Assembly (NCBI GenBank): GCA_014843695.1
Contig: CM026398.1
Location: 45,886,443-45,950,442 of the forward strand
DNA: 64,000 nt
Direction of reading: 5' to 3'
From: Archivesica marissinica
Taxonomy: Eukaryota > Mollusca > Bivalvia > Venerida > Vesicomyidae
Shown here: positions 538-30,600 of the stretch, piece by piece
Layout: every line of letters starts with the position of its first letter
How positions within the stretch are numbered: position 1 is the stretch's first letter
Notes under the pieces: model-generated
Told to the model about the DNA's origin: nothing
The model's database searches: none
What the model saw: the letters and a program-made list of their open reading frames with translations, nothing else
Made by a program: the position numbers and the translations under genes

Positions 538-639
538 CTGGTTGCCACCAAAGTGATGGCAGTGGCTAACACCTATTGGACCTCCACCCACAGACTGGCC
601 CATCGTGTCCCAACACATCATACCCATCTTCTGTTTAAA
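538..639 (-). CDS. GALNT7: GALNT7-like exon 10: start of ricin-type lectin domain
   Basis: 102 bp, phase 0, acceptor TTTCAG, donor CAG/GTACGT. Encodes [14 protein letters not shown] and CHHFGGNQ, the alpha repeat of a ricin B-type lectin domain. The acceptor at 640 keeps the family spacing; a second AG nine bases further in is possible. Bases 1-537 hold intron only; the next lectin exon is outside the window. Confidence 0.85.
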
Positions 640-3600
640 CTGAAATTAGAACAAAATGAGGATTCTTTATAGTCATTGTACAGTAAGTAATAATCTCAAA
701 ATCATAGATGCTGCATTTGTCAGACATTTCCCATGGTACACTGCTCAGACATTTCCCATGGTACACTGCTCAGACATTTCCCATGGTACACTGATCAGAC
801 ATTTCCCATGGTACACTGATCAGACATTTCCCATGGTACACTGCTCAGACATTTCCCATGGTACACTGATCAGACATTTCCCATGGTACACTGATCAGAC
901 ATTTCCCATGGTACACTGCTCAGACATTTCCCATGGTACGCTGATCAGACATTTCTCATGGTACACTGATCAGACATTTCCCATGGTACACTGATCAGAC
1001 ATTTCCCATGGTACACTGATCAGACATTTCCCATGGTACACTGATCAGACATTTCCCATGGTACACTGATCAGACATTTCCCATGGTGCACTGATCAGAC
1101 ATTTCCCATGGTACACTGATCAGACATTTCCCATGGTGCACTGATCAGACATTTCCCATGGTACACTGATCAGACATTTCCCATGGTACCTTATTTAGAC
1201 AAGTAACATGTTACACTAACGAGACACGCGTTATATTACACTAATGAAACATTTCCATGGTACACTAATGAAACATTTCCATGGTACACTAATGAAACAT
1301 TTCCATGGTACACTAATTAGACACAGAACATGGTATGCTAATTACACACATAATGTGGTACACTAATTACACACAGAACGTGGTACACTAATTGCACACA
1401 GAATATGGTACACTAATTACACACAGAACGTGGTACACTAATTACACACATAACGTGGTACACTAATTACACACAGAACGTGGTATGCTAATTACACACA
1501 TAACGTGGTACACTAATTACACACAGAACATGGTATGCTAATTACACACATAATGTGGTACACTAATTACACACAGAACATGGTACACTAATTACACACA
1601 GAACGTGGTACACTAATTACACACAGAACATGGTACACTAATTACACACAGAACGTGGTACACTAATTACACACATAATGTGGTACACTAATTACACACA
1701 TAATGTGGTACACTAATTACACACATAACGTGGTACACTAATTACACACAGAATGTGGTACACTAATTACACACAGAATGTGGTACGCTAATTACACACA
1801 GAATGTGGTACGCTAATTACACACATAACATGGTACACTAATTACACACAGAACGTGGTACACTAATTACACACAGAACGTGGTACACTAATTACACACA
1901 GAATGTGGTACACTAATTACACACAGAACGTGGTACACTAATTACACACAGAACATGGTACACTAATTACACACAGAACGTGGTACACTAATTATGTATG
2001 AGATCTGTCGAGATATAGTAATTTAATAATCATAAGAAGCGATAGTGGTATAAAATAGCTAGCATGTTGTGCAAAGGAAACAACTTTTAAAAAACACTTA
2101 ATAGGACCTATCTACTTTTAGAGAGTATTCAGGGGCAGTAACTGACCGATGTCTATCATTAAACATGTCCATGGTAAATTAATTACACACAGAACGTGGT
2201 ACACTAATTAGACACTTGCTATACATATGTTACACACAGAATGTGGTCCACTAATTAGACACTTGCTATACATATGTTACACACAGAACGTGGTACACTA
2301 ATTAGACACTTGCTATACATATGTTACACACAGAACGTGGTCCACTAATTAGACACTTGCTATACATATGTTACACACAGAACATGGTACACTAATTAGA
2401 CACTTGCTATACATATGTTACACAAATTACACAATGTTTCACCTACCTCTCCCCAAGCTTTGTTTGGGGGTAACAAGGGGAATTTGTCATATACTTCGTA
2501 TGCTACGTTGTCCATAAACCATTTAAAACTCTTGCATTTATTGTCATGTTTAAATTTCAATTGTTTAGTTATATCTCCTATTGGGTAGCCCCGAACGCTC
2601 GGTTCTCTCGTGTAAAAATATTCTTTGAATTCGTCATCTAACCACACTTCAACTACTCGCATATAATTCTGAAAATAGATAGAAAACATCAAATAACTGA
2701 CATGGACTGGTGCATTCAACATCAAGTAACTGACATGGACTGGTGCATTCAACATCAAGTAACTGACATGGACTGGTGCATTCAACACCAAGTAACTGAC
2801 ATGTACTGGTGCATTCAACATCAAGTAACTGACATGGACTGGTGCATTCAACATCAAGTAACTGACATGGACTGGTGCATTCAACATCAAGTAACTGACA
2901 TGGACTGGTGCATGATATTTTTAGACCAATATATTAATAAGAAAATTAAATTTGGACCAGTTCATTTATCAACATGGGTAATTTCGTCTAAAAATAGTAA
3001 TACAGTCAAACCTGTGTTAGTGGTCACCTACATTAAACAGCCAACCTGTATTAAGCAGCCAGTTTCCAGATTCCCAATATGTTGTTTTATTATATATTTG
3101 ACGTCTATTAAGCAGCCACCTGTGCTAAGCAGCCACTTTCTGTGATTCCCTTGGCTGGCTGCTTAAGACAGGTTTGACTGTATTACAAAAAGTGCAGATC
3201 CTAATGAGAGCTCGCCGCGAGCCGGCTCATCTGGATCTACAATTTTTGTAAGCCTATTTAGAGGTATGTGGTGTTGAAAGGGCAGCATTTCAGTTAACCC
3301 ATTTCATTCTGGATACATTTAAAGGCTTTTGCATACAACATAGATCCAGATCAGCTGCAGCATGCTGATCAGGATCTATGTTGTTTGCTACATAGCCAAG
3401 TGTCTTAGCAACATCATCTGAATAGCAAACAGCATAGAGCCTGATCAGACGGCATGTTCCATGGCGGTTGATCTAGCTCTATGTTCTTTGCAAATACTGT
3501 TTGAACGGTATCCAGAATCAAATGAGAGATTCTCAGAAATATAATTCCAAGGATTTATCGAAAAGTTTCTGAGCAAGTGACAAGAGAGAAATTGAAATGA

Positions 3601-6600
3601 AAGCAACCAAGATTCCATCAAAATAAACCTTAAGACAAAGTTTGAACAACATTGGGCTAAAATTAAAGTTTCTACTGCGCTTGCAAATAATTACTTCCAC
3701 TTCATCTACCTACTGGCCTCTTTGATTTTCCGGAAAATGACACATTATCAAAAAGAACCAAATTTTCATTACAATAGAGCGAGTGACCCCAGTTTGGTTA
3801 AAATCTAACCGTAAATAGATAGTTTACAAGAAAAATGTTGGTGGACAGAGATACAAAGCACACAGTGATGAGGTGTGTGTTTTACGTTTATTTATCGTCG
3901 CTACTGGTTGCCCATATGAGCGACGCCTCTTGAAGAGATTAGTCATTTTAGAGTTTTGGAGGATAGTGCAATGATACAGACAGAGACCCACTCCAGAGCC
4001 TCCTCTGGTTCTTTTACGTGCACGGTGTACAGCACCGACACGAGACCTCGGTTTAAAGTCCCATCTGAAAGACTGTTAATTTTATTATGGTCAGACGGGG
4101 GATCGAACCTACGATCCCTGAGTGATGAGGTGTGAAATCCCAAGTGTTAAATACTGGTAATGGGTGAAACTCACTGAGGTAATGAGTGAAACTCACTGAG
4201 GTAATGAGTGAAACTCACTGAGGTAATGGGTGAAACTCACTGAGGTAATGAGTGAAACTCACTGAGGTAATGGGCGAAACTCACTGAGGTGATGGGCAAA
4301 ACTCACTGAGGTGATGGGTGAAATTCACTGAGATAATGGGTGAAACTCACTGAGGTGATGGGTGAAACTCACCTGAGGTGATGGGCGAAACTTGCTGAGG
4401 TGATGGGCGAAACTCACTGAGGTGATGGGCGAAACTCGCTGAGGTGATGGGCGAAACTTGCTGAGGTGATGGGCGAAACTTGCTGAGGTGATGGGTGAAA
4501 CTCACTGAGGTGATGGGCGAAACTTGCTGAGGTGATGGGCGAAACTTGCTGAGGTGATGGGCGAAACTTGCTGAGGTGATGGGCGAAACTCGCTGAGGTG
4601 ATGGGTGAAACTCGCTGAGGTGATGGGCGAAACTTGCTGAGGTGATGGGCGAAACTTGCTGAGGTGATGGGCGAAACTTGCTGAGGTGATGGGTGAAACT
4701 CACTGAGGTGATGGGCGAAACTTACTGAGGTGATGGGCGAAACTCACTGAGGTGATGGGCGAAACTCACTGAGGTGATGGGTGAAACTTGCTGAGGTGAT
4801 GGGCGAAACTTGCTGAGGTGATGGGTGAAACTCACTGAGGTGATGGGCGAAACTTGCTGAGGTGATGGGCGAAACTTGCTGAGGTGATGGGCGAAACTTG
4901 CTGAGGTGATGGGCGAAACTCGCTGAGGTGATGGGTGAAACTCGCTGAGGTGATGGGCGAAACTTGCTGAGGTGATGGGCGAAACTCACTGAGGTGATGG
5001 GTGAAACTTGCTGAGGTGATGGGCGAAACTTGCTGAGGTGATGGGCGAAACTTGCTGAGGTGATGGGCGAAACTTGCTGAGGTGATGGGCGAAACTCACT
5101 GAGGTGATGGGCGAAACTTGCTGAGGTGATGGGCGAAACTTGCTGAGGTGATGGGTGAAACTCACTGAGGTGATGGGCGAAACTTGCTGAGGTGATGGGC
5201 GAAACTTGCTGAGGTGATGGGCAAAACTCACTGAGGTGATGGGCAAAACATAACATGGTGATGAAAATGTGATCAAAGAACTGAGGAAGGTAGTTCACTA
5301 ATTCAGTTTTACGTTAAACAGCAATTTCATTGGAATATAATACCAAAAAAAAACAATTCTTACCAATAATATAACTGGAATTTTAACATCAATCTTTCCA
5401 AACCCGTAAGGCATATGGTTTCTATAGACATGACCGACCCTGGAACACGGCACCCATTCTATGCTACCTCCACATTGCCATATCTGTAAGAGAACGACAG
5501 GACATGAACATAGCTAACATTGCCATACCATCCTGATGTTTATACCTATATATGGCAATCTGATGACTACAAAGTAAGACAGGCATGTTAGCGCAGTGGT
5601 TAGTGCACACGCTTCTCACAAATGCGACACGGGTTTGATCCTCGGACCGGGAAGTATACGAGATGGTACGGTGGTCGCCAGATCCGACAGGTGGTTTTCT
5701 CCGGGTACTCCAGTTTCCTACCACATGAATGACCACATTTACGCTTTCATTCGAGCCAACTAGAGTGATTAATATAGGTTGTTAAAGCTTGTTTCGCAAT
5801 CGTTGTAAAATAAAGTTTTTTTTAAGACAGGCATGTTTCATAAAACATTTTTACTATAAATGGCACATTAAAGACAGCATAACACAACACAACACTACCG
5901 CAATCCAAGTACAGGAATTTTCCTTACTAATGTTTCCTTACTACTAAATTGGACATCAATTCTATATTTGGTTAAAACCAATCAACAGAAAAGAATGATG
6001 ATGTCGCAGTTTCTAAAATGGCTGCAATTATCTAAAAACTTCTACATTGATTGTTCATTATTAATCATTCTTCCAGCTATATTTAGATCTAGCCAATATC
6101 TACTTAGATTCAGAATCCAATTTACCTTTAAAGCTACTGTCTCGCATATTGTCAGATAACCTTTAAAGCTACTGTCTCGCATATTGTCAGATAACTTTTA
6201 AAGCTACTGTCTCGCATATTGTCAGATAACTTTTAAAGCTACTGTCTCGCATATTGTCAGATAACCTTTAAAGCTACTGTCTCGCATATTGTCAGATAAC
6301 CTTTAAAGCTACTGTCTCACATATTGTCAGATAACTTTTAAAGCTACTGTCTCGCATATTGTCAGATAACCTTTAAAGCTACTGTCTCGCATATTGTCAG
6401 ATAACCTATAAAGCTACTGTCTCGCATATTGTCAGATAACCTTTAAAGCTACTGTCTCGCATATTGTCAGATAACCTTTAAAGCTACTTGCTCGCATATT
6501 GTCAGATAACTTTTAAAGCTACTGTCTCGCATATTGTCAGATAACCTTTAAAGCTACTGTCTCGCATATTGTCAGATAACTTTTAAAGCTACTGTCTCGC

Positions 6601-9600
6601 ATATTGTCAGATAACCTTTAAAGCTACTGTCTCGCATATTGTCAGATAACCTTTAAAGCTACTGTCTCACATATTGTCAGATAACCTTTAAAGCTACTGT
6701 CTCGCATATTGTCAGATAACCTTTAAAGCTACTGTCTCGCATATTGTCAGATAACCTTTAAAGCTACTGTCTCGCATATTGTCAGATAACCTTTAAAGCT
6801 ACTGTCTCGCATATTGTCAGATAACCTTTAAAGCTATGTCTCGCATATTGTCAGATAACCTTTAAAGCTACACCCCAACAAAACCTTTAAGCTACTGTCT
6901 CGCATATTGTCAGATAACCTTTAAAGCTACTGTCTCGCATATTGTCAGATAACTTTAAAGCTACTGTCTGCATATTGTAGATAACCTTAAGCTACTGTCT
7001 CGTCTGCATATTGTCAGATAACCTTTAAAGCTACTGTCTCGCATATTGTCAGATAACCTTAAAGCACTGTCTCGCATATTCAGATAACCTTAAAGCTACT
7101 GTCTCGCATATTGTCAGATAACTTTTAAAGCTACTGTCTCGCATATTGTCAGATAACCTTTAAAGCTACTGTCTCGCATATTGTCAGATAACCTTAAAGC
7201 CACTGTCTCGCATATTGTCAGATAACCTTTAAAGCTACTGTCTCGCATATTGTCAGATAACCTTTAAAGCTACTGTCTCGCATATTGTCAGATAACCTTT
7301 AAAGCTACTGTCTCGCATATTGTCAGATAACTTTTAAAGCTACTGTCTCGCATATTGTCAGATAACCTTTAAAGCTACTGTCTCGCATATTGTCAGATAA
7401 CCTTTAAAGCTACTGTCTCGCATATTGTCAGATAACCTTTAAAGCTACTGTCTCGCATATTGTCAGATAACCTTTAAAGCTACTGTCTCGCATATTGTCA
7501 GATAACCTTTAAAGCTACTGTCTCGCATATTGTCAGATAACCTTTAAAGCTACTGTCTCGCATATTGTCAGATAACCTTTAAAGCTACTGTCTCGCATAT
7601 TGTCAGATAACCTTTAAAGCTACTGTCTCGCATATTGTCAGATAACCTTTAAAGCTACTGTCTCGCATATTGTCAGATAACCTTTAAAGCTACTGTCTCG
7701 CATATTGTCAGATAACCTTTAAAGCTACTGTCTCGCATATTGTCAGATAACTTTTAAAGCTACTGTCTCGCATATTGTCAGATAACTTTTAAAGCTACTG
7801 TCTCGCATATTGTCAGATAACCTTTAAAGCTACTGTCTCGCATATTGTCAGATAACCTTTAAAGCTACTGTCTCACATATTGTCAGATAACCTTTAAAGC
7901 TACTGTCTCGCATATTGTCAGATAACCTTTAAAGCTACTGTCTCGCATATTGTCAGATAACCTTTAAAGCTACTGTCTCGCATATTGTCAGATAACTTTT
8001 AAAGCTACTGTCTCGCATATTGTCAGATAACCTTTAAAGCTACTGTCTCGCATATTGTCAGATAACCTTTAAAGCTACTGTCTCGCATATTGTCAGATAA
8101 CCTTTAAAGCTACTGTCTCGCATATTGTCAGATAACCTTTAAAGCTACTGTCTCGCATATTGTCAGATAACTTTTAAAGCTACTGTCTCGCATATTGTCA
8201 GATAACCTTTAAAGCTACTGTCTCGCATATTGTCAGATAACCTTTAAAGCTACTGTCTCGCATATTGTCAGATAACCTTAAAGCTACTGTCTCGCATATT
8301 GTCAGATAACTTTTAAGCTACTGTCTCGCATATTGTCAGATAACCTTTAAAGCTACTGTCTCGCATATTGTCAGATAACCTTTAAAGCTACTGTCTCGCA
8401 TATTGTCAGATAACCTTTAAAGCTACTGTCTCGCATATTGTCAGATAACCTTTAAAGCTACTGTCTCGCATATTGTCAGATAACCTTTAAAGCTACTGTC
8501 TCGCATATTGTCAGATAACCTTTAAAGCTACTGTCTCGCATATTGTCAGATAACCTTTAAAGCTACTGTCTCGCATATTGTCAGATAACCTTTAAAGCTA
8601 CTGTCTCGCATATTGTCAGATAACCTTTAAAGCTACTGTCTCGCATATTGTCAGATAACCTTTAAAGCTACTGTCTCGCATATTGTCAGATAACCTTTAA
8701 AGCTACTGTCTCGCATATTGTCAGATAACCTTTAAAGCTACTGTCTCGCATATTGTCAGATAACCTTTAAAGCTACTGTCTCGCATATTGTCAGATAACT
8801 TTTAAAGCTACTGTCTCGCATATTGTCAGATAACCTTTAAAGCTACTGTCTCGCATATTGTCAGATAACCTCTAAAGCCACTGTCTCGCATATTGTCAGA
8901 TAACCTTTAAAGCTACTGTCTCGCATATTGTCAGATAACCTTTAAAGCTACTGTCTCGCATATTGTCAGATAACCTTTAAAGCTACTGTCTCGCATATGG
9001 TCAGATAACCTTTAAAGCTCTGTCTCGCATATTGTCAGATAACCTTTAAAGCTCTGTCTCGCATATGTCAGATAACTTTAAAGCTACTGTCTCGCATATT
9101 GTCAGATAACTTTTAAAGCTACTATCTCGCATATTGTCAGTTAACCTCTAAAGCCACTGTCTCGCATATTGTCAGATAACCTTTAAAGCTACTGTCTCGC
9201 ATATTGTCAGATAACTTTTAAAGCTACTGTCTCGCATATTGTCAGATAACCTTTAAAGCTACTGTCTCGCATATTGTCAGATAACCTTTAAAGCTACTGT
9301 CTCGCATATTGTCAGATAACTTTTTATTATGAAGGATGAATCAGTAATTTATACAAATTTATTTTAGCTCGATTGCGCAACAAGTTATTTCAACTTATAT
9401 TAATCACTCTCGAGACCTCATTCCTGATGGAATCCATCGCCACGAGGGAGAGAGAAGAGGCAACATGGAATTTAAATGCCTTGCCTAAGGGCACAATCGT
9501 AACGGCTCCAGCGGGGCTCGAACTCCGGACCTTTTGCACCTGAAGCGAACGCGCATCCACTGCGCTATCACGACTTCCACAGGATGAATCAGTACAGACC

Positions 9601-12600
9601 TACTTGTATATATTGAAAGTTTAAACTTTATTTAGTGGAAGCCGTGATAGCGCAGTGGATGCGCGTTCACTTCAGGTGCAAAAGGTCCGGAGTTCGAGCC
9701 CCGCTGGAGCCGTTACGTATTGTGCCCTTAGGCAAGGCATTTAAATTCCATGTTGCCTCTTCTCTCTCCCTCGTGGCGATGGATTCCATCAGGAATGAGG
9801 TATCGAGCATGATTAATATAAGTTGTAAGAACTTGTTTCACAATCGAGCTAAAATAAATTTGTATAAATTAAATTTTATTTATTTTACAACGATTGCGAA
9901 GCAAGTTCTAACAACTTATATTAATCACTCTCGTTGGCGCGGATGAAAGTGTATATGTGGTCATTCGTTTGGGAGAAAACCGGAGAAAACCACCTGTCCG
10001 ATCTGGCGACAACCGTACCATGTGGGAGAAACACTAACCACTACACTACTCGGACAGTATGCTAGTATATATTGTGGCGAGGCTTTTTATTGAGTTTGTT
10101 TTATTAATGAATTCAATCTGATAAAATGTTTGTATAAGTCGAATGATTGATTATTCAGGGTTCATTCTAGGTCAGAATTTTTGGGAGAAGTGATACTGCG
10201 CGTGATCGCTTCCTTAAATGGTGTTCTTTAATATACTTCAAAATAGGGTTAAAATGCACAGTACAACCATTAAATACAACATTTGAATAGAAGGAGTGCT
10301 TTATAATGGGCCAGTGTATCTTACTAGACACAATTTTGTTTGAAAATCGTAAAAACCAAAAAAATAAATTTCTCCATAGAATGATCCCTGTTATTGCAAT
10401 AAATTGTACACAAACTTACTATTTTACAGTAAGATGTACAAGATCCATAACAAATGCTTCCAATGGCTTTAAACTATTATAATCAGTGAATATTTAATAA
10501 AAATCAATACTGCTTTCATATTTCCCCTGAGTTTGTATATTAATGATAAGTTGATAACATATGTGATGTGAATGCAGACATCAGGTCAGACATGCAGTGT
10601 GTGAATGGTATGTGAGTGGTACAGTCGTCCACCTGATAGGACAGTTGGGCTTTCTCTGGGGGACTGCGGTTTCCCACCCACACGAATGATCACATACATG
10701 TATACACTTTCATTTGTGTGAATGATGTGGGGGGGGGGGGCTTAAGTGTGCATTTATAAAGCAATTAATGAGACTTCTGCTTAACATTTTCAGATTATAC
10801 TTTTCAAACTCAGACTTTTGTGAAAATGCAAAAACCTCAACAAAAATTCTCTTGAGAAAAAATGTTATGTTATATTTCGGGTTTTACGCCTGCATCAGCA
10901 CCATTTTGGGCTATATCGCCGGCGGGCAGTTTACCTAACAACACCTTTCCTGGGCAGGCTCCAGCGGTTAACCAGTACTTGGGTGCACCAACCTCCGTAA
11001 GAAACTACCAACTTTTTCATATAAATGAGACATGGTCTGAGCGGGGCTCGAACCCGTGACTATCAGTGATGATAGGTTACAGTGGTATACAAGTCAGCGA
11101 CCGTAACCACTCGACCACGGAGACGGACCTTGTAAAAGAAACACCAACAAAGATAGCAAGATGCGTGGGGACAGAGACAATGTTAAAAGCAAAGTTGATG
11201 GAATGGAGTAACAATACCCATCGGGAAGCTTTGCTCTTGGGTAAGCTAACAATACCCGTCAGGAAGCTTTGCTCTTGGGTAAGCTAACAATACCCGTCAG
11301 GAAGCTTTGCTCTTGGGTAAGCTAACAATACCCATCAGGAAGCTTTGCTCTTGGGTAAGCTAACAATCCCATCAGGAAGCTTTGCTCTTGGGTAAGCTAA
11401 CAATACCCATCAGGAAGCTTTGCTCTTGGGTAAGCTAACAATACCCATCAGGAAGCTTTGCTCTTGGGTAAGCTAACAATACCCATCAGGAAGCTTTGCT
11501 CTTGGGTAAGCTAACAATACCCATCAGGAAGCTTTGCTCTTGGGTAAGCTAACAATACCCGTCAGGAAGCTTTGCTCTTGGGTAAGCTAACAATACCCGT
11601 CAGGAAGCTTTGCTCTTGGGTAAGCTAACAATACCCATCAGGAAGCTTTGCTCTTGGGTAAGCTAACAATACCCATCAGGAAGCTTTGCTCTTGGGTAAG
11701 CTAACAATACCCGTCAGGAAGCTTTGCTCTTGGGTAAGCTAACAGGATCCTGAGAGTCAGCAGAAGGCAACCGTGATGCCATTGCATTGCCATTGTTTAC
11801 AGAACAGACAATATCTAATAAATTTAATAACTCTACCTTAAATGAAAGCTCAAAGTTTTCACCACCCCAAATTTGAAGTCCTTCATCATAAGCACCCATT
11901 TCAAAGAAGTATTTACGATCTATGGCAAACAGTCCACCAGCATGGGTGGGAGCTCTGAAAAAAGGGAACATACATGGTTTGTAAGCACTAACGTACTAAT
12001 GAAATTACACATGTGCGCAAACACGCAATGACAACATACAACGTACATTCAGTTTGTACAAGAGTTTGTTAGCAAATTAAAATCCATTCCAAATACAAGA
12101 ATTTGAAGTTCTAAATGTGACCTTAGATAAGATAAATTTATTTTGAGTCGTCAAGACAGATCACAAATAACATAAGCTCTGATGAGCTTTAGAAATCGAC
12201 TACGAGTCAGGTGACCATGACTCGACATGGCTGTGTCATGATTTCTGTACATCGCTTCGATATGGTCAACATTTGTGCTAAGTGATTACAAATTATTTTT
12301 CGCACGGAGACTATTCCTCAACAAAGATTTCTTTTCTATTATAAATTAATTACAGAGCTACGAAGCGGGCAGAACAAACAGAAGACTATCTCAGTCAAAA
12401 TCAGATTATATATTTAGTTTATACAAATTTAATTTAGCTCGATTGCGAAACAAGTTCTTCTAACTTATATTAATCACTCTTGAGACCTCATTCCTGGTGG
12501 AATCCATGCCCACGATGGAGAGAAGAGGCATGTGGAATTTAAATGCCTTGCCTAAGGGCACAATCGTAACGGCTCCAGCGGGGCTCAAACTCCGAACCTT

Positions 12601-15600
12601 TCGCACCTGAAGCGAACGCGCTACGACTGCGCTATATAACGAATTCCAAGATTATATATTTTTCAAGTACATAAGCATATAGATGAAGATAAAATGTTAA
12701 GCATTGTGTGTCTACACAGGCCAACGCCCGAGATATCACAACAGCTCCTTGGACTGTCGTCACGGCGAATATACCTGTAGAAGAAAATTCAAATGAGCAA
12801 TGCTGCTGCAAATGTTCTTACGCTGTTTCCATGCCCTTGAACTAAAGACATAGTACAATATTACTCCACCAACAAAATACAGACGGATCTGTAGTCACGC
12901 TGTAACACGCTGGACTGGTAATCCAGGGATCGCAGGTTCGATCCCCCGTCTGACCCTAATAAAATTAACAGTCTTTCAGATGGGACATTAAACCGAGGTC
13001 TCGTGTCGGTGCTTTACACCGTGCACGTAAAAGAACCAGAGGAGATTCTGGAATAGGTCTCTGTCTGTATCATTGTACTATCCTCCAAAAATCTAAAATG
13101 ACTAATCTCTTCAGGAGGCGTCGCTCATATGGGTAACCGGTAGCGACGATAAATAAAAGTAAAACCACCACCACCAACAAAATAAAATTTGTCATTCACG
13201 TCCACCATCTAAATCAAATCCCATCTATCTAACATGATCTTGTAAGAATGCTTACAAACAAATATCAATTATGTTATATTTATGTTATATTTCGGGTTTT
13301 ACGCCTGCATCAGCACCATTTTGGGCTATATCGCCGGCGGGCAGTTTACCTAACAACACCTTTCCTGGGCAGGTTCCAGCGGTTTACCAGTACTTGGGTG
13401 CACCAACCTCCGTAAGAAACTGCCAACTGTTTCATATAAATGAGACACGGCCTGAGCGGGGCTCGAACCCGTGACCATCAGTGATGATAGGTTACAGTGG
13501 TATACAAGTCAGCGACCTTAACCAGTCGACCACGGAGGCGGACCAAACAAATATCAAATAAATAAAGAGCACAACCAATGGTTGCTATCACAACACTGAC
13601 AAATGTGTAACTTTGAAATCACCATGGTTACAATTTGAGTACAATGACAATGTGATGTGTTAGTGACTGCAAGCATTATGTGAGAGAAATCTGTAGTCCA
13701 GTGGTAACACGCTGGACTGGTAATCCAGGGATCGTAGGTTCGATCCCCTGTCTGACCCTAATAAAATTAATAGTCTTTCAGATGGGACGTTAAACCGAGG
13801 TCTCGTGTCGGTGCTTTACATCGTGCACGTAAAAGAACCAGAGGACACTCTGGAATGGGTCTCTGTCTGTATCATTGCACTATCCTCCAAAATCTAAAAT
13901 GACTAATCTCTTCAGGCGTCGCTCATATGGGTAACCGGTAGCGACGATAAATAAACGTAAAACACACACAAGTTATTTTACAAGATACATTGAAAAACAC
14001 CAGGGTCATGGTAGAACACAATTATGTGTAAATGTGAGGCCTAATGACTGTGTCAGTGACTGTGTATTGCGTTATGCAGCCAGACACGGGAATCACGGAA
14101 AGTGGCTGTTTAGCACATGTGGCTGCTAAATAGAGTGTATAAGGAAGTAACATATTGAAAATCTGAAAACTGGCTGCTTAATAGAGGTGGTCCTTAACAC
14201 AGGTTTGACTGTATTTATCTAAAAAACAACAACAAAAAAGCAATGTTCCTTTAAGAAACAGATCCCATGACCTAGTATAACATCCCTTATGTACACTGAT
14301 AGGTGAGGGTGGAGAATATAAGGGAGGAAAATAGACAGCTTCCTTCATCCTGAAAATGCCAAAATATGCTTAGCCGCAGCTATTCTAAAAACACAAAATG
14401 CTTTATATGGGGGGGGGGGGGGTGGCAATAATATACACTGTCCTATAAATGGAAATTACATGGAAACTTTCTGCCATACAACCATTTCCAAGAAAACCTG
14501 TAAGATTCAGCCCGGGACGTGTGCATATCGGCCTCTCTTCTAGGAATAGTGATCTCTTTGTACAGAAATCCCCAATCAAATATGCCAACCCTACGACTGC
14601 CCGAGGAAAACAGGGCAGCGTACTCAAAAGTTTCATAACCAATCACGTCCACTGTTGGAACAGCCAATATTGTCCTGTAAATATTAATAATTATATATAC
14701 ATACAAAATGTGACGATATATATATCTTACTGATAAGCCTAAAACACAGTCACACCTGTAGTTACGAGTCGCATGTTCCCCGTATTCTCTTACTCCTACA
14801 CTCGTCCAATGCAACCCGATAGCATTTACAGTGAAAGTTGATACAACCAAACACGAAATTCAATTGAAATACATGTACAGTCAAACCTGTATTAAGCAGC
14901 CAGCCAAGGGAATCACAGAAAATGGCTGCTTAGCACAGATGGCTGCTTAATAGATGTCAAATGCATACTAAAACAACATATTGGGAATCTGGAAATTGGC
15001 TGCTTAATACAGGTTGGCTGCTTAATAGAGGTGACCACTAACAAAGGTTTGACTGTATAATAGAGGTGACCACTAACACAAGTTTGACTGTATAATAGAG
15101 GTGACCACTAACACAGGTTTGACTGTATAATAGAGATGACCACTAACACAGGTTTGACTGTATAATAGAGGTGACCACTAACACAGGTTTGACTGTACAA
15201 TAGAGGTGACCACTAACACAGGTTTGACTGTATAATAGAGGTGACCACTAACACAGGTTTGACTGTATAATAGAGATGACCACTAACACAGGTTTGACTG
15301 TATAATAGAGGTGACCACTAACACAGGTTTGACTGTATAATAGAGATGACCACTAACACAGGTTTGACTGCTTAATAGAGATGACCACTAACACAGGTTT
15401 GACTATAATAGAGGTGACCACTAACACAGGTTTGACTGTATAATAGAGGTGACCACTAACACAGGTTTGACTGTATAATAGAGATGACCACTAACACAGG
15501 TTTGACTGTATAATAGAGGTGACCACTAACACAGGTTTGACTGTATAATAGAGGTGACCACTAACACAGGTTTGACTGTATATAGAGGTGACCACTAACA

Positions 15601-18600
15601 CAGGTTTGACTGTATAATAGAGGTGACCACTAACACAGGTTTGACTGTATAATAGAGGTGACCACTAACACAGGTTTGACTGTATATATAGATGACCACT
15701 AACACAGGTTTGACTGTATAATAGAGGTGACCACTAACACAGGTTTGACTGTATAATAGAGGTGACCCTAACACAGGTTTGACTGTATAATAGAGGTGAC
15801 CACTAACACAGGTTTGACTGTATAATATAGATGACCACTAACACAGGTTTGACTGTATAATAGAGGTGACCACTAACACAGGTTTGACTGTATAATAGAG
15901 GTGACCACTAACACAGGTTTGACTGTATAATAGAGGTGACCACTAACACAGGTTTGACTGTATATTGAAGTAGAATCGCTGTTTATTTTCCAATCAACAT
16001 GCGCATTGCGTTGTATCAACATTTAACAGTACATATCATTTGTTGCATTGGATTGCATAGCGCGGATATATTGTGTAAGTAATTATACATTTGACTTATG
16101 ATTCGCCACAATGTGGGTGGGACCCACTCTCCGAGCATTATCTTATTTCACAGGTTAGCGACACCGACTGTGCGAGATTGTAACCTGAATTCCGAGAACA
16201 GTCTAATAATGATCACTGCTATTTTAGCACAATAAAAGTATTACCGTATCTAGATATACACGATCTATGATTTATTTAAGTTTAAACTTTATTTATTTTA
16301 TAACGATTGCGAAGCAAGTTTTAACAACTTATATTAATCACTCTCGTTGGCGCGGATGAAAAAGCGTATATGTGGTCATACGCGTGGGAGGACACCGGAG
16401 TACTCGGAGAAAACCCACCTGTCCGATCTGGCGACCACCATACCATCTCACATACTTCCCGGTCCGAGGATCGAACCCTGGTTGCATTGTTGCATATGTT
16501 TTATTTGTTACAGTTCTTATAATAAAAACAGCAAAAATCTTGTTTGCTATCCGATTATGTACAGCACCATTTAGGTATTATTTTCGAGATACATGTAATT
16601 TGTAAAAGAACACTTATTGCAAATTTAAAATATATTATATTGTTAGCTACATATCCTGATTGCATATTTGGGTGTCCACACAAGTGAATATGGGTGTCCA
16701 CACAAGTGAATTTGGGTGTCAACACAAGTGAATTTTAAGGTTTCAATGAAAAACCGAGAAAACAAGCTGTCCTATGTGGCAAATTCTTTTTTTTAAATTT
16801 CGGTTGAGTTTAACCTTCCCAATGACAGAAAACAACAGGTGTGACTGTATTTCTTACATCAACAGCCAAATTGCCACAACTTGAGGTCAGATTTTCCGTA
16901 AATGTACATATTTAACTGTTTCATCGTAACATTTAGGAATTGTACTTGTATTCCATAGAATAAAGTCTCGACTCTCAGGTAAGTGCAATCTTGGCAACAT
17001 ACATGTGCACAACTGGCGAGATGGGTTGCATTGTAGATTAGATATTTCATTCATTAATAATTTGAACAGGTAACGAGGTATCGAAATATTCACATTCACA
17101 ATATTCCAAAATTGTTGCACCACCCTCAACAACAATTTCGATTAAATCCATTTTCATTTTGTATACAATAGATATGTACTGTACATTAAGTTATATTTCG
17201 GGTTTTACGCCTGCATCAGCACCATTTTGGGCTATATCGCCGGCGGGCAGTTTACCTAACAACACCTTTCCTGGGCAGGCTCCAGCGGTTAACCAGTACT
17301 TGGGTGCATCAACCTCCGTAAGAAACTGCCAACTTTTTTATATAAATGAGTTATGTTATGTTATATTTCGGGTTTTACACCTGCATCAGCACCATTTTCG
17401 GCTATATCGCCGGCGGGCAGTTTACCTAACAACACCTTTCCTGGGCAGGCTCCAGCGGTTAACCAGTACTTGGGTGCACCAACCTACGTAAGAAACTGCC
17501 AACTTTTTCATATAAATGAGACACGTTCTGAGCGGGGCTCGAACCCGTGACCATCAGTGATGATAGGTTACAGTGGTATTATATAAATGAGACACGGTCT
17601 GAGTGGGGCTCAAACAACTGTACATTATGAATGAATAAATATGTTTAAACCAACAACAAGGGACTTATCTACATATACAACCCATTTTCGCAGTGTGAAC
17701 AATATCTTCTCAAGTGTTTTGCATACATTTTTCGCAACTAATACCTGTACGGTTCACTGTTATGTTCTCGTCTTTTCAACTCTTTCTGAGGGACCTGACT
17801 TTCCTTGTACAGGAATCCCCACTCAAATATACCCCTGTGATGGGCTGTGGCTGCACCGTACACGGATGCATACGCATAGTTGTCCCAGTTAATCCCATCC
17901 ACGATAGGCACTGCCATTATAGTTCTGCAAATTGGTTTTGTGAGAACAAACGCAAACTTGAAATATGGCATTCAAAGAGAAACAATCGAACCATTTACAG
18001 TAAATACGGTAGTGTGCATTTGTTCAGTGTCAGAACCACTATCGGAAAAAGGGGTTGCAGTGCATATTATAGCCATTGAGATATGTGCAAACCATGAAGT
18101 CCAATATGAAAGTCACCATTAGAAGGGACATAATTCTCGAAAGTGGTTAACTTTATTAATATTGGGATAAACTGATTGAAAGTTAGTAAAGTGGACACCT
18201 TGTACCGGTAATCCTAAAATTAGCGAGAGGATCATCAAGCCAGTGTGAGAACCAAAGAACGAACTACAAAACTTGTTCAAGCCAGTCAACACATGGACAT
18301 TTTGAGTTGAAGAAAACAGCAGCCTGAAATGTGCTATTTTGTGGTGGACTGATCCATCGATTATAATCGAAAATTAATCGGAAACACCCAATAATCGGCG
18401 ATCATCGATCACACTTTCTCATTAACGAATACATTTTTACTCTACAGTATTTTCTTTCGGCCGATTGTTCCATTGGAATAAAAATGGACTCAGACATGAA
18501 ACATAAACGTGGTTGAAAACTTAAGCACAGTAGTGTTCGCGGTTGTTGACAATAAATCAAATATGAGATAATTTACATAATGAAAATGTATGCCCAGTTT

Positions 18601-21600
18601 CACACTCACTACTTCAATAAGATCACATTATGGCATTAATACTAATACATATAGTCATATATATTTACAATCCGATTATAATCAACATCTAATTATATCT
18701 ATGCTGACTTCTTACAGGTTTAAGTAAGTATAAATATATTACATATCAAAATGAATCCAACTTAATAACTGAACCAGTCAGTTAGTATAAATATATTACA
18801 TATAGAAATCAATCGAACTTAATAACTGAACCAGTCAGTTAGTATAAATATATTACATATAGAAATCAATCGAACTTAATAACTGAACCAGTCAGTTAGT
18901 ATAAATATATTACATATAGAAATCAATCGAACTTAATAACTGAACCAGTCAGTTAGTATAAATATATTACATATAGAAATCAATCCAATCCAATTCGATA
19001 GATAGATCTGTAGTCCAGTGGTAACACGCTGGACCGGTAATCCAGGGGTCGCAGGTTCGATCCCCAGTCTGACCATAATAAAATTAACAGTCGTTCAGAT
19101 GGGTGCTGTACACCGTGCATGTAAAAGAACTAGAGGAGACTCTGGAATGGGTCTATGTCTGTATCATTGCACTATCCTCCAAAAATCTAAAATGACTAAT
19201 CTCTTCAGGAGGCGTCACTCATATGGCCAACCGGTAGCGACGATAAATAAACGTAAAACACACACACAATCCAACTAATCAATGCAACCGGTCAGTAAGT
19301 ATAAATATATTACCCGACACAATCCAACTTGCTATTGGGAACCAGTTAGTATGACTGTATGAAAAGAGTGTATTACCTGTCATAGGCGATCCTACTTAAG
19401 AGTGGAACCAGCCAGTTTCTGTTACACTCGCAGTGGGCATCTAAGAATATTATTACATCTCCTATGGACAGCTCAGCTCCCCTACTTCTAGTTCTTATAA
19501 GACCTAAACGCTCTTTGTTTCTATAAACTTTCACAACATTGTTGTGCAATTTGTTGAATTCTTTAACATAATCATCCAGCTTGTCTTTTAAATGCTCTGC
19601 AATGAAAGTGGAAAATTTATAGTAAAATCATGTAGTTGTGGAGTTTGGGTTTTACACCAACAGAGATTAAGTTTAGCAGTGCCAGACAGAAATGACGAGG
19701 ATACAGTCGGTTGGACAGCGGTTCAGGACCAGGGATTATTCTAGAGGGCTATGTGGACGAAATTGTCGCCATAGGGACCCTGACTTCGCCCTCTGGGGCC
19801 CACTTCTCTTTTTTTGGTGTTTACGATTTTCAAACAAAATTTTGTCTAGTAAGATATACTGGCCCATTATAAAGCACTCCTTCTATTCAAATGTTGTATT
19901 TAATGGTTGTACTGTGCATTTTAACTCTATTTTGCAGAAGTATATTAAAGAACACCATTTAAGGAAGCGATCACACGCTTTCTCACTTCTCCCAAAAATT
20001 CTGACCTAGAATGAACCCCGAGGACATAGTTTGGGTTTTACACAAATAGAGTTTAAGTTTAGCAGTGCCAGACAGAACTGATGAGGATGCAGTCGGTTGG
20101 ACAGCGGTTCAGGACATAGTTTGGGTTTTACACCAACAGAGTTTAAGTTTAGCAGTGCCAGACAGAAATGACGAGGATACAGTCGGTTGGACAGCGGTTC
20201 AGGACATACATGTACAGTCAAACCTGTCTTAAGCAGCCAGCCAAGGGAACCACAGAAAGTGGCTGCTTAATAGAGGGACATTGTATAATAAAACAATAGA
20301 TTGGGAATCTGGAAACTGTCTGCTTAATACAGGTTGGCTGCTTAATGGAGGTGACAACTAACACAGGTTTGACTGTATATAAAGTTGACACACAAAATAT
20401 ATTAAATTACTTGACCGTACCCTCTAAGTGCAACATACGGGAGTTCTGCACGTCGTCATGGTGTGATGAACATTGACTATAAGATTCGCGACAGATTTAC
20501 AGAAAGGACAGGCTAGTAAATTGACCTGCAAGTTGACCTTGAACTTTGAACTGGTTGAAACACATGTTCTGCTGAGTGTTGATGTCATCTCAACGTGGTA
20601 ATCTTTGACCTATATTGCAGGTCGTGAAAATCCTTCAAAAGGACAGGACACAAAATATAGTCAGTTGACATTGACCTATAAGTGAGACCTTGACCCGACA
20701 TGCTTGGAACATGTGTTTTATATGCTGTGTCGATGTGGTTGAACATAATCATGATTATAGTTTCATGGAAATTCATGCAGGCCATTTCGAGTAGATATCG
20801 TACACAATGGACCACAGGCACAAGACACAAACATTTTTTTGGCCTATGGTCATATAGTAAGTAATGTTTACTAAAGGCAACCAACAGAATTGAAACATGC
20901 ATGCAGAAACATCAACGAGAAACCATGTGTCATTCTGGTGTTATTTGACAGATCTCCATGAAATAAAAAGTATTTGTTGATAGAATAAGGGCTTCAGGTC
21001 GGGACAACAAGGGCATATCAGTGATCTGGTCGTTTTTACATAGTTTCTCGTCGATGTTTCTGCATGCATGTTTCAATTCCATTGGTTGCCTTTAGTAAAC
21101 ATTACTTACTATATATGACCATAGGCCAAAAAAAGCGTGTAGCGCGAGTGAAAATATGCAAATTTTCTCTTCGAGGTGAGATATATTCCATATTCACTCA
21201 AAACAAACAAATTTTCTTTTTATTTTATGCTAATTGGTGAAAAACAAACACAAAATGAAGAAATTAAAATAGCTAGCCGCCATGTTTTTGCGCGGATGAA
21301 TACATTGACGACTATACGTCGTGAGTCGATACACAAATCTGCCACCATCTTGAATTTAAAGTTGAATCGAGGAAAAATACATGAAAACATTTATTGGATT
21401 TATTGTTACAATTTGCATTGACAAAATTCGAGACATTGTCAGTTGTATTTCGCTTTTGATTTGTTTCATAACAAAAACAATAATACAGATAAATAGTGTC
21501 ATTGAAGCCAGGTAAACGGTGAAAATTAAATGACACATGTGACACAGTGCGAGTTGGTGATAATAAAAAAAGTAGTTCGGCAAAATACAGTGAGTGATAT

Positions 21601-24600
21601 GTAGTGAGTCATATGGATTATATGTCACTGATAGAACACTGTATTTCATCAATAAGCATAAAATAAAATGACACTTCCGGGACAATAGAGTGAATACTGA
21701 ATGTCTGTTCTACTCCGTATCAGGTTCAATATTTTCCGGGAAAAAATTCACGAGGTGCCATGGTATTAAAAGCGTATATATGGTCATTCCTGTATGAGGA
21801 AACCAGAGTACATGGAGAAAACCCACCTGTCTGATCTGGCAACCATCGTACCATCTCACATACTTGTAAGCGTGATTGTATTGATATAATGTGTTTGTCG
21901 GATCTTTTGGGATTTGACAGTTTACAAGCCCTTGTCGGAATCATACCTTTATCACTGAAATCATCCACCATTACAACTTCCTGTAGAAGTTCCGGAGGCG
22001 ACATGTTCACCACGCTATGTACAGTTCTGATAAGTGTTGACCAGCCTTCATTGTGGAACACCAATATAACACTGGCTTTGGGTAACTTGCTCTTCTCTGG
22101 ATACTGCCAGTATCTGCATCTACAATGTGCAGCACCGATACTTTTATAACATTCTCATCCTAGTGTGGGTCACTATAGGAAATATATATAGCATTTCTTC
22201 CTCTGCAACTTTCTGATCCTAGTATGGTATAGGAAATATACATAGCATTTCTTCCTCATATACATAGCAGCAGACAGATCTGTAGTCCAGTGGTTAACAC
22301 ACTGGACTGATTATCCAGGGATGGCAGTTTCGATCCGCTGTCTGACCCTAATAAAATTAAAAGTCTTTCAGATGGGACATTAAACTGAAGTCTCGTGTCG
22401 GTGCTTTACACCGTGCACATAAAAGAACGAGAGGAGACTCTGGAATTGGTCTCTGTCTGTATCATTGCACTATCCTCCAAAAATCTAAAACAACTAATCT
22501 CTTCAGGAGGTGTCGCTCATATGGGCAACCGGTAGCGACGATAAATAAACGTAAAACACACACTATACCTAGCATTTCTTCCTCTGCAAGTTTCTGATCC
22601 TAGTACGGCATAGGAAATATACATACATGAAGAACTCAAAGTTGAATGAAGAACTTAAATTCTGCTATTGTATTTAGTTGTTGCCATTCAAACACAATGG
22701 TCAATATCCTTACTGATTCCATCTACGACTAGTTACAATACAGTATAAACTTACTCATCCATCCTAGTATCTGGTATAGTTCTGTCCAGAGAGATCTTGT
22801 CACTGTTAATCATGTTAAATCCAAACTGGTGGACAGATTTATCAGCAGTTGATTTCTCCTCCATCGTGGTATATACTGGCTGACCTCCTTCACCTACACA
22901 CAATGTCAATATTAACCGTTTTGTATGGGAATACAAAAATCATAGAGTATGATTATATTTCAGAACCATGCACTTCTGCACGTAGGCAGGCCCCTATGAT
23001 TTCTTCTTAATTAATCGAAATATATAAACCATAGAGTGCAATTATATTGTATATTGAGAAATTTTGGCTTATGAAAATGACATTTTACGGTGCGCGGTAT
23101 ACACCAGAACTACGTTTTCACCGATTTCCGTGCCAAAAATTGGGTGCGCAACATAGCAAATTACGGTATGTTCAGTTTTTACGACAGAAATTTCAATAAA
23201 AAGTGCTACAAGTGATCTATGTACATTCATTATTATGATTTGCTATTGATCTACGGGAAAAACCCCGAACAATTTGTTTGTTTTGGGGATTTAAGGCCAC
23301 ACTAACAACAGCTTAGGTGATACGCTGACTCTCCAGCCATTATTGGTGAAGGAACCGGGTAACATACAGCAGTAGGGTTCATTCTAGGTCAGAATTTTTG
23401 GGAGAAGTGAGAAAGCGCACGATTGCTTCCTTAAATGGTGTTATTTAATAACAACAAAATAGGGTTAAAACACAGTATGACCATTAAATACAACATTTGA
23501 ATAGAAGGAGTGCTTTATAATTACTGGCCAACATTTTATGTGAAATATTTTTAGGGAGAAGTGGGGTCCCTAGGGCGACTATTTCGCCAACATCGCCCTC
23601 TAAAATGATCCCTGCAGCAGTGAGGTGCAAGTGATTAAGACAAAGACGGTAACTACTCGGCCACCAAAAACTTTAAGCCGAACAAAAAAGCTATCCTTGT
23701 TAAAATAATATTACCCGTATACATTTTAAAAATGTACATGTACACAGGGTTCCCGCTGTCGGTCGCACATTGCGACAAAAAAACAAATATTGGCGCTAAA
23801 TATTGTCAATTGGCGAACATATTTGGCGCCATCCTTTTTGTCAAATACATGGCTTCAAATATTTATTTGTGACCTATATGGCTCTTAGCTGGCTCCAAGA
23901 TTTTTAAATTGGCTCCAGTGTTTTCAATTGACAACAGAAATGGCGCAGACAAACATTCAGACAGAGGGAACCCTGTGTACAGTAGGTTGAATTTCTTTAC
24001 GGAAACACTTTGGAAATACCGGTTTTGTAACGAGTAAAGTAGAAACCTTTTTAGAATAGTGACAATCATTTACAATAGGAGTACGATATCAATAATACTA
24101 TCAGGTTACATTAAACTTCAGTGCATATCTGTCACAGGGTTCATTCTAGGTCAGAATTTTTGGGAGAAGTGAGAAAGCGCGTGATCGCTTCCTTAAATGG
24201 TGTTCTTTAATATACTTCTCCAAAATAGGGTTAAAATGCACAGTACAACCATTAAATACAACATTTGAATAGAAAGAGTGCTTTATAATGGGCCAGTGCA
24301 TCTTACTAGACAAAATTTTGTCTAAAAATAATTAATTTTATTTTTATTTTTTAGGGAGAAGTGGGGCCCCCAGAAGGCGAAGTCAGGGTCCCTAGGGCGA
24401 CAATTTCGCCCACATCGCCATCTAGAATGATCCCTGATACTATCAGGTTACATTAAACTCCAGTGCATATCTGTCATGACCAAACAATACATAGTTCCCA
24501 CGTGTGTGTCAAAAACACTGATAAGATCTTATCTTGGCAGCCATTTTGACTGGCAAGTTTTATTAACGGCAATTTCATGATTTTACTAGTAATTCTTTAA

Positions 24601-27600: not shown

Positions 27601-30600
27601 CAAACGTATTCTACGACGTATAGATCTGCCCGTCAAACTTGTTCAGACGTATAGATCTGCCCGCCATAGGGCAGACGTATTCTACGACGTATAGATCTGC
27701 CCGCCAAAGGGCAGACGTGTTCTACGACGTATAGATCTGCCCGCCAAACTTGTTCAGACGTGTTCTACGACGTATAGATCTGCCCGCCAAACTTGTTCAG
27801 GCTTATATAAAACTTGTTTTAAAAGGCAAAAGGGTTGGACTAAAGGGCAGGACTAAAAAGAGGGGCAGGGAGCAGCGTCCTGCCATTCAAATCTAGAAAA
27901 AAACCTGCATACATGTATAATGCAGTTATAAAGTGCATACATTGTAAAACATGCATATAGCTGCAAATAACTTTTGTGCAATTTTCATATCTATTTCACA
28001 GTACGACCGAAGTCATCTGATTGGCTGGTGCAGGCAGTTGTGTAATCTTGTTAAAACTTGTGCATTATCATACTATGAATTGTATCCGTTTTTGGTTGAC
28101 GTGATTACTATTGATTTGCAAGCTAATGGCTTTTGCCCATCCTTGATTGGTTAAGACTAAGGAATGTCTGGTGGACTATTCAAAGACGTTTCGGATTGAA
28201 GTGAATTAGAAGTCAATAATGGACACAGTTGATTCAATAAAAAAAACCACCATGCATTGTTGTAGTGATATGTGAATTGGGGTCAGAGGCCTCAGAGCCA
28301 AGACACGTGTGTGTACATGCTGGTTAATGTCTGAGTGGAACATGCAAGAGTGTACATGATGCTTGTGGTTGCAGCCGATGTGCAAGGTGTGGTCAGAGGG
28401 GGGTGAGGTCATAGTTAGGCAGGGTTCATTCTAGGTCAGAGAAGTGAGAAAGCACGTGATCGCTTCCTTAAATGGTGTTCTTTAATATACTTCTCCAAAA
28501 TAGGGTTAAAATGCACAGTACAACCATTAAATACAACATTTGAATAGAAAGAGTGCTTTATAATGGGCCAGTGCATCTTACTAGACAAAATTTTGTTTTA
28601 AAATCGTAAAAACCAAACATACATTTTTTTAGAGAGAAGTTGGGCCCCCAGAAGGAAAAGTCAGGGTCCCTAGGGCGACTATTTCGCCCACATCGCCCTC
28701 TAGAATGATCGCTGTTAGGTCTACATGGGTCCTTAGTTGAGTCAGCATATTTGTCCCTATTACACCTGATACTTCTCCCTTACCACGAAGCTCTATTTCA
28801 AGCCTTAACCCTTTCAACCCCACAGGCCTCTAAATAGGCTTATGAAAAGTGTAGATCCAAATGAGCCGGCCGGCTCGTGATGAGCCGTCTCATCAGGATC
28901 TGCACTTTTTTGCCAGTACTAATTATTACTATTTTTAGATAAAATTACCCATTTTGATAAATGAACTGGTCCAAAGGTAATTTTCTTATTAATTTATTGG
29001 TCTGAAAATATCACGCACCAGTCCATGTCAGTTACTTGGGGTTGAATGGGTTAATATATGAAATCGCTTACCCAAATGGTTCGCCGGAGGCGAGGGTAAA
29101 TAAGCTAAATCATAATCATATACCTGGTCCATGCTTAATCTTGTAGTCTGGCTCATAATTTCCAAGCACACCATTTCTCAACAAGGCTTTAGGCCCATAC
29201 ACTCTGTTTACGACTGTATCATTGACAGATCTGGACTTTGGCAGTTCCAACGGATTAGCGAGGACATTCTTCTTTGGATCATTAAATGGGAGCATCTCTT
29301 TAACATCATTTGCTAACTGAAATAAATGTGAAGTATTTCACCCCCAGTATATAACCGTATTATTATTTTCCATTCGTGTCCTTGCTCAAAGACAATACAT
29401 ACATGATGTGACCGAGTATCGAACCCTGTACCCCAGGCCTCAATTCCAAATATGTCTACCAGTACTACTGTGCGCATTGGACCATGGACACTGTTTGCTA
29501 TTTTTCGATGCATTATACATGTGACACATATGGACTGTATGCTATTTTTCGATGCATCATACATGTGACACATATGGACTGTATGCTATTTTTCGATGCA
29601 TCATACATGTGACACATATGGACTGTATGCTATTTTTCGATGCATTATACATGTGACACATATGGACTGTATGCTATTTTTCGATGCATCAAACATGATG
29701 TGACACATATGGACTGTATGCTATTTTTCGATGCATCATACATGATGTGACACATATGGACTGTATGCTATTTTTCGATGCATCATACATGTGACACATA
29801 TGGACTGTATGCTATTTTTCGATGCATCATACATGTGACCATATGGATGTATGCTATTTTTCGATGCATCAACATGTGACACATATGGACTGTATGCTAT
29901 TTTTCGATGCATCATACATGATGTGACACATATGGATTGTATGCTATTTTTCGATGCATCATACATGTGACGCATATGGACTGTATGCTATTTTTCGATG
30001 CATCAAACATGTGACACATATGAACGAAGACAGATAATCTGTAACCATGCACACAGTTACAAAAATATAATGTAGCTAGGTTATCCAGAGTGAATGGTCC
30101 AGTAGAAAACAATTTCTTCTTATTCTTCTTCTGTTACTGCACAAACTAACATTCTGAGGCATCGTCGATCAAATTTGTGCATGATACAAGAAGTGGTTAC
30201 AACGACCACATATTTATATGGTTAAAAACGATTCCCTAGTTCTGTGACGAGATCGCCATCAACACCGCCATCAACACCGCCATCAACACCGCCATGACCG
30301 CCATCAACACCGCCATGACCGCCATCAACACCGCCATGACCGCCGCCATGACCGCCATCAACACCGCCATCAACACCGCCAAAAACCCCACCCACCCTGA
30401 CCGCCATCAACACCGCCATGCCATCAACACCGCCATCAACACCGCCAACACCGCCATCAACACCGCCATCAACACCGCCATCAACACCGCCATCAAACAC
30501 CGCCATCAACACCGCCATCAACACCGCCATCAACACCGCCATGACCGCCATGACACCGCCATACCCACCCCACACCGCCATCAACACCGCCATGATCGCC

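Follow-up and report, generated by a model that had tools for sequence, protein, structure and literature searches.

Does one clam gene encode two versions of the catalytic domain of a single N-acetylgalactosaminyltransferase (GalNAc-transferase)? The question is raised by a 64-kilobase (kb) stretch of the genome of Archivesica marissinica (contig CM026398.1, positions 45,886,443 to 45,950,442; hereafter the window), in which a GALNT7-like gene on the minus strand carries two homologous copies of its sixth exon, 6a and 6b. The duplicate exon is real, and the clam gene looks convergent with a known kind of switch rather than a one-off. Our reading, to which we give a probability of roughly 0.64, is that exon 6 was duplicated within protostomes, apart from vertebrates, that the messenger RNAs (mRNAs) use 6a or 6b, and that the choice tunes the acceptors.

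Judged by its predicted product, the gene is a complete GALNT7 orthologue of 12 exons. Exons 1–10 lie inside the window; the last two, 11 and 12, are found some 15.6 and 20 kb past its low end (Table 1). Joined, the exons give one open frame to a single final stop, of 624 amino acids with 6a and 623 with 6b. Both isoforms score above the Pfam cut-offs for PF00535, PF02709 and PF00652 (GT2 and ricin-type lectin domains), and exon 1 encodes a hydrophobic N-terminal stretch, judged by eye only, as the membrane anchor. The best solved relative of a 434-residue model of the protein is GALNT7 (6iwq; 466.5 bits, versus 411.3 for GALNT10), which together with the domains bears out the original prediction of a GALNT7 orthologue. 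We collected relatives with residues 150–290 of the 6b isoform as the query and kept the best 120 of 1431 matches; by hand count, 41 of these 120 rows bear GALNT7-type names, and the rest have a general name or none, one being called 'GalNAc-T2'. The closest protein is a venerid-clam one: the GALNT7-like protein of Ruditapes philippinarum (P0002) and protein P0009 are each identical to the 434-residue model at 380 of 434 positions. A search of the whole assembly (1.54 gigabases in 2808 contigs) with the whole isoform found no second near-identical gene copy among 87 candidates scored. An eleventh exon guessed at 358–389 proved wrong and was discarded, the true exons 11 and 12 lying outside the window; the guess was part of the query models for the database searches, the whole-isoform genome search and the solved-structure search.

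Exons 6a and 6b are adjacent and homologous, measure 180 and 177 nucleotides (nt) and have matching split codons, as tandem duplicate exons do. Each is preceded by AG and followed by GT, and neither contains a stop. Exon 5 ends in ..AG, to which 6a adds A (AGA) and 6b adds G (AGG); both copies in turn end in ..AG, and exon 7 adds A (AGA). The original prediction had described the exons as homologous, intact, phase-identical multiples of three that share split Arg codons with exons 5 and 7 and are about 40% identical by eye. The coordinates, lengths, splice dinucleotides and freedom from stops all agree with this, the split codons are exact, and on alignment 25 of 59 residues are identical (local score 135, where none of 2000 shuffles exceeded 43). 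At the nucleotide level 113 of 171 positions are identical in a free alignment, and 79 of 174 differ in a codon alignment. 6a is 95% identical to the Ruditapes segment. When 11 exon-6 sequences were compared with the window by tblastn, no third copy emerged, only short matches with E-values of 0.24 or worse. In the whole assembly 6b has a single 100% match (C13:45900939-45901118; six candidates scored), the next best match being 6a (43%, E 5.6e-10); paralogue exons come after it, none better than E 0.003. Neither this search nor the whole-isoform one matched a retrocopy that would serve as transcript evidence. Because its best other genome match is 6a and it carries Tyr-Lys-Glu (Y-K-E) at GALNT2 positions 280–282, 6b derives from this gene.

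Has 6b been kept as a coding exon? Conservation was read from the 119 proteins with one exon-6 segment among the matches listed (P0002–P0120, the named ones being protostomes). In the 20 columns with 95% conservation or more, 6b retains the consensus residue 15 times; in the remaining 39 it agrees with 6a only 11 times (Fisher p 0.0009). Since conserved residues are kept preferentially, the alignment shows 6b to have evolved as coding sequence, under coding constraint. Y-K-E is found in 6b and in 119 of the 119 listed one-segment rows, and in 0 of 130 listed vertebrate rows. Between the copies the nonsynonymous divergence (dN) is about 0.52, and the synonymous divergence (dS) is saturated at about 3.2.

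The segment encoded by exon 6 bears on acceptor binding. The peptide-groove residues of GALNT2 include Val255, Leu270, Phe280, Trp282 and Tyr284 (PMC4432651), and all five fall within the exon-6 equivalent, the numbering having been checked on the solved chain. At the aligned positions 6a and 6b have Gly and Val (255), Tyr and Tyr (280), Glu and Glu (282), and Gln and Thr (284); position 270 depends on the alignment, being a gap in 6a or His and Arg by hand count, and was not relied on. The GIF-x-W motif of the exon had been equated with the F-x-W of the groove. This register is wrong: the motif, which both copies keep, falls six residues ahead of the groove pair, at GALNT2 F274/W276, while groove residues F280 and W282 align with Tyr and Glu in 6a and 6b alike. 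Because column 255 holds Gly in 108 of the 119 listed one-segment rows, the Val predicted for 6b is a real departure. GALNT1, 2 and 10 share this Val, and GALNT4 carries Thr.

The same segment exists in two versions in vertebrates. Among the best 120 of 4390 vertebrate GALNT7 matches, 18 are of the YI type, 90 of the DV/DS/DA type and 11 hold both in line; P0135, whose second copy is only partial, was excluded from the type counts. Two Amia isoforms (P0182/P0186) are identical at 593 of 593 residues outside the segment and at 47 of 64 inside, and two Polyodon isoforms (P0168/P0205) at 587 of 587 and 48 of 64. Because these isoforms are identical elsewhere, the segment is, in vertebrate annotation, a real alternative pair. 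Gene and segment are those of the clam, and in the 11 both-copy models the repeat unit runs from ..DR/T to ..PYR/ (slashes mark borders), as the clam exon does, these borders being read from proteins and not from gene structures. The vertebrate copies differ from the clam ones in being more alike (44–50 of 62 residues identical, versus 25 of 59) and in carrying W-K-R where the clam copies have Y-K-E. Switching within the catalytic domain of a GALNT7 had been thought undescribed, yet these database isoforms differ in exactly this segment. A 2026 paper also describes altered inclusion of human GALNT7 exon 6, which is lowered in endometriosis; the change is presented as exon skipping, and a homologous partner exon goes unmentioned in the parts of the paper covered (PMC13039441).

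A further case comes from a rotifer. Of the best 120 of 1431 matches, 119 proteins have one 6a-type segment, and the GALNT7-like model of Brachionus calyciflorus (P0001) has three in tandem in one predicted protein. It differs from the clam gene in that the first segment is truncated, position 255 reads G, K and G, and the arrangement is known from the protein model only. Column 255 also splits the listed vertebrate copies completely, with Tyr in 29 of 29 versus Ser, Val or Ala in 101 of 101 (single copies were sorted without this column). Three columns in all fully split the vertebrate copies, and 6a and 6b differ at each; as the two copies disagree at 34 of all 59 columns, a count of three out of three is in itself unremarkable, and this test of parallel change is weak. 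Two of the three are conserved in the relatives: column 22 (Tyr in 119 of 119; Phe in 6b) and column 255 (Gly in 108 of 119; Val in 6b). It is a tentative and somewhat doubtful idea that exon 6 is a repeatedly invented switch, in vertebrates, rotifer and clam, with a copy altered each time at GALNT2 Val255.

Were the clam and vertebrate exons duplicated once or separately? We built a tree of 49 exon-6 segments over 63 columns, with bootstrap values that had not settled. The vertebrate copies (n = 17) form one clade (98/91), as do the Brachionus segments (n = 3; 99/89), two of which are flagged as long branches, and 6b is placed among protostome rows, at forks of 88/91 and 85/93. The tree also unites Brachionus with Aplysia, which shows its limits. 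Approximately unbiased (AU) tests reject, under the tree model used, a shared origin of 6b with the vertebrate copies, whether it is forced with the YI type (p-AU 0.004) or the DV type (0.005). They do not reject, though nothing supports, 6b with the 6a group of this clam, Ruditapes and P0009 (0.44), with Brachionus (0.38) or with paralogue exons (0.29), the exact placement being beyond the resolution of 63 columns. As the vertebrate copies form one clade and 6b is rejected with either type, the analysis suggests that the clam and vertebrate duplications are separate. Because T-F-E-Y is common to 6b and arthropod rows such as Aedes and Schistocerca, the duplication may, as a hint only, be older than the clam's own family; clam 6a has N-Y-A-Y.

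Under our reading, a tandem duplication of exon 6 inside protostomes, separate from the vertebrate one, would let mature mRNAs take 6a or 6b. The outcome would be a pair of Golgi enzymes with 34 differences among 59 aligned residues, all within a single segment of the catalytic domain. These differences would include the groove positions equivalent to GALNT2 Val255 (G/V) and Tyr284 (Q/T), so that the choice could tune which peptides or glycopeptides are modified. Because its sequence is the conserved one, 6a would be the default form; 6b, with its weak donor, would be a minor or tissue-restricted form, turned on by a regulator.

Several observations weigh against this reading. Five of the 20 conserved residues are altered in 6b, where for instance Val replaces Arg271 and Ser replaces Pro300 (GALNT2 numbering), and the 6b branch is very long (2.11). 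The 5' splice site of 6b, CAG/GTTTTC, scores -3.5, the weakest of ten scored with an approximate matrix, and 40% of the 4324 GTs on the same strand of the window attain that level. For 6a the score is 0.25, and for the eight remaining exon ends in the set, one of which belongs to the dropped guess, it ranges from 0.7 to 6.2; the set did not include the ends of exons 1 and 2 or of the true exon 11. Used on its own as a query, the 6b segment brought up eight candidates, none at E 0.001, in a database clustered at 90%, where isoforms that differ over less than 6% of their length would hide one behind the other. Against the solved enzymes, the fragment with 6b scores a little lower than that with 6a for GALNT7 (169.9 versus 175.7 bits) and clearly lower for GALNT2 (128.5 versus 140.9). 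Since it is also lower for GALNT10 and the 6s22 enzyme and higher for GALNT1, 4, 9 and 12, 6b looks somewhat closer to a generic family member. Among the 120 listed vertebrate models, the 11 with both copies count against a choice of one. Both exons being multiples of three, the frame itself enforces no exclusivity, so that double inclusion and double skipping are both possible, and the intron between the copies, at 3,070 nt, is well beyond any length at which steric exclusion could act. Of the predicted mutually exclusive switch, alternative use is the most likely reading; strict exclusivity is putative.

The very weak donor, the long branch and the failure to find a 6b-type protein in the clustered database would fit a 6b that is a former alternative exon going out of use, or rare splicing noise. 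We consider this unlikely, although it is the foremost rival: 6b has no stop, its AG and GT are intact, its conserved residues are preferentially kept, and weak sites are usual in regulated exons too. The frame also stays open with both exons, so that one mRNA could include 6a and 6b and add a second segment of about 60 residues. The 11 vertebrate models with copies in line, the copy and partial copy of P0135 and the three segments of Brachionus are in keeping with such tandem inclusion. It is nevertheless improbable: doubling the segment would push DAH and WGGEN, two motifs of a compact fold, some 60 residues further apart; 108 of the 120 listed vertebrate models contain a single copy; and in Amia and Polyodon one version cleanly replaces the other.

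A single ancient duplication common to clam and vertebrates would account for the same segment, the same two-copy design and, as far as proteins show, the same borders. The single vertebrate clade, the rejection of 6b with either vertebrate type and the absence of its Y-K-E from the 130 listed vertebrate rows make this very improbable, in a test that is not final, given its mere 63 columns, the length of the branch and bootstrap values that had not settled. Hardly credible is an assembly artefact that brought 6b in from elsewhere or from a misjoined haplotype, as 6b differs from 6a at 34% of aligned bases, lies in a 73-megabase contig, matches the assembly once and has matching phases. Alternative use of a protostome duplicate is our preferred account.

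How might the splicing machinery choose? No U12-type site was recognised by eye among the splice sites scored; AG and GT are present on both copies, with 6b the one whose donor is weak by the approximate matrix. A mobile-element-like inverted repeat lies transcript-upstream of 6b, and a copy of its terminal repeat lies transcript-downstream (Table 1); pairing of 14193–14213 with 14876–14896 would loop out 6b. The duplex across 6b is predicted at -48.3 kcal/mol, compared with -50.0 for pairing with the upstream array, which is a far longer partner, and -39.6 for the part of that array closest by; the best of 200 random 151-nt windows gives -41.6. Pairing across 6b would thus compete with pairing to the array, in a way that resembles a competing-structure model of exclusive splicing (PMC6071210), and because the repeat recurs in the window we keep this only as an idea. 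Outside the element, the terminal repeat, CAGTCAAACCTGTRTTA, has copies at 3003–3180, 14195, 20215–20375 and 48437.

Related switches are known from other GalNAc-transferases. Drosophila PGANT9A and PGANT9B arise from an alternative exon pair, 8A/8B, that tunes specificity (PMC6115407); the likeness to the clam gene is the exon pair, and the difference is that this switch lies in the lectin domain and covers about 30 residues. Closer is fly PGANT5A/5B, in which alternative splicing in the catalytic domain alters a few residues, changes acceptor specificity and yields tissue-biased isoforms (PMC12776162), so that the novelty claimed for a catalytic-domain switch with changed specificity does not hold. 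PGANT5 differs in being a GALNT1 orthologue and in the region affected (residues 398–457, the gating loop and helix I-turn-helix II), whereas clam exon 6 precedes GGLF and WGGEN. The general class to which the clam case belongs is that of tandem duplicated exon substitution, for which GALNT13, Pgant5 and gly-5 are among the families with events in vertebrates, flies and nematodes (PMC9741552). By term search the main text of that paper names GALNT once (GALNT13) and GALNT7 not at all, and no mollusc appears in the sections covered; GALNT is likewise absent from the main texts of PMC4465641, PMC7954323 and PMC5740500. Among the open-licence papers listed, taken without their supplements, none described homologous alternative exons for GALNT7, and the papers searched contained no functional study of segment choice in vertebrate GALNT7.

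If exon 6 is indeed such a repeatedly invented switch, a single follow-up GalNAc-transferase could, through splicing, recognise two acceptor codes in animals as far apart as clams and bony vertebrates. Vertebrate GALNT7 is annotated with two versions of a groove-forming segment, for which an independent duplication in the clam would be a natural experiment. The residues altered in parallel, above all GALNT2 position 255, would be candidates for acceptor choice. Such isoforms can be concealed by protein databases clustered at 90% and by annotation with one model per gene.

Table 1 Exons of the clam GALNT7 gene and repeats flanking exon 6b (window coordinates unless a locus is named)
Feature	Position	Strand	Remarks
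Exon 1	33011..33151	-	Start Met; hydrophobic stretch, by eye the membrane anchor
Exon 2	29124..29316	-	Stem
Exon 3	22755..22893	-	
Exon 4	21947..22119	-	VFHNE, VDDFS
Exon 5	19377..19596	-	DAHCE motif; 3' end is split Arg codon
Exon 6a	17745..17924	-	180 nt, canonical copy; Gly codon for GALNT2-Val255 position at 17894-17896 (hand-counted)
Intron 6a-6b	14675..17744	-	3,070 nt
Inverted-repeat element	14870..15964		One end grown into 35-base-pair array, 27.6 copies (15005-15964); transcript-upstream of 6b
Exon 6b	14498..14674	-	177 nt, divergent copy; Val codon for GALNT2-Val255 position at 14644-14646 (hand-counted); weak donor
Terminal-repeat copy	14193..14213		Transcript-downstream of 6b; 95% complementary over 21 nt to 14876-14896
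Exon 7	11837..11954	-	GGLF, WGGEN; start completes split Arg codon
Exon 8	5364..5483	-	
Exon 9	2447..2668	-	
Exon 10	538..639	-	Lectin domain begins
Exons 11 and 12	L040:4247-4372, L041:9843-9983		Past low end of window

Paired GALNT7-like proteins also occur in five gastropods and a nemertean (P0024/P0051, P0029/P0042, P0032/P0048, P0036/P0045, P0037/P0044 and P0041/P0120). They are 53–76% identical outside exon 6, and their contigs are of equal size, probably the same chromosome. Because the differences run along the whole length, these pairs are, on protein comparison, gene duplicates and not exon switches.

Elsewhere in the clam assembly, long single frames resembling GalNAc-transferases were found at four loci, L009 (C2:14088599), L010 (C17:35422567), L012 (C13:30445338) and L013 (C13:6702432). 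Their open frames of 617, 630, 415 and 325 amino acids are 33–37% identical to the clam protein, with a TAA inside the third match, and they are perhaps intronless family members or retrogenes. On C14, GALNT-like exon matches of equal score are arranged as mirror images within about 81 kb (20071007-20077236 on the minus strand and 20145707-20151944 on the plus strand), either an inverted duplication of recent date or a palindrome of the assembly. The introns of the gene itself are rich in minisatellites, with repeats of 35 base pairs (bp) × 92 at 6124–9324, 22 bp × 50 at 4156–5249, 38 bp × 14 at 11209–11744, 25 bp × 28 at 1306–1994 and 25 bp × 24 at 720–1323.

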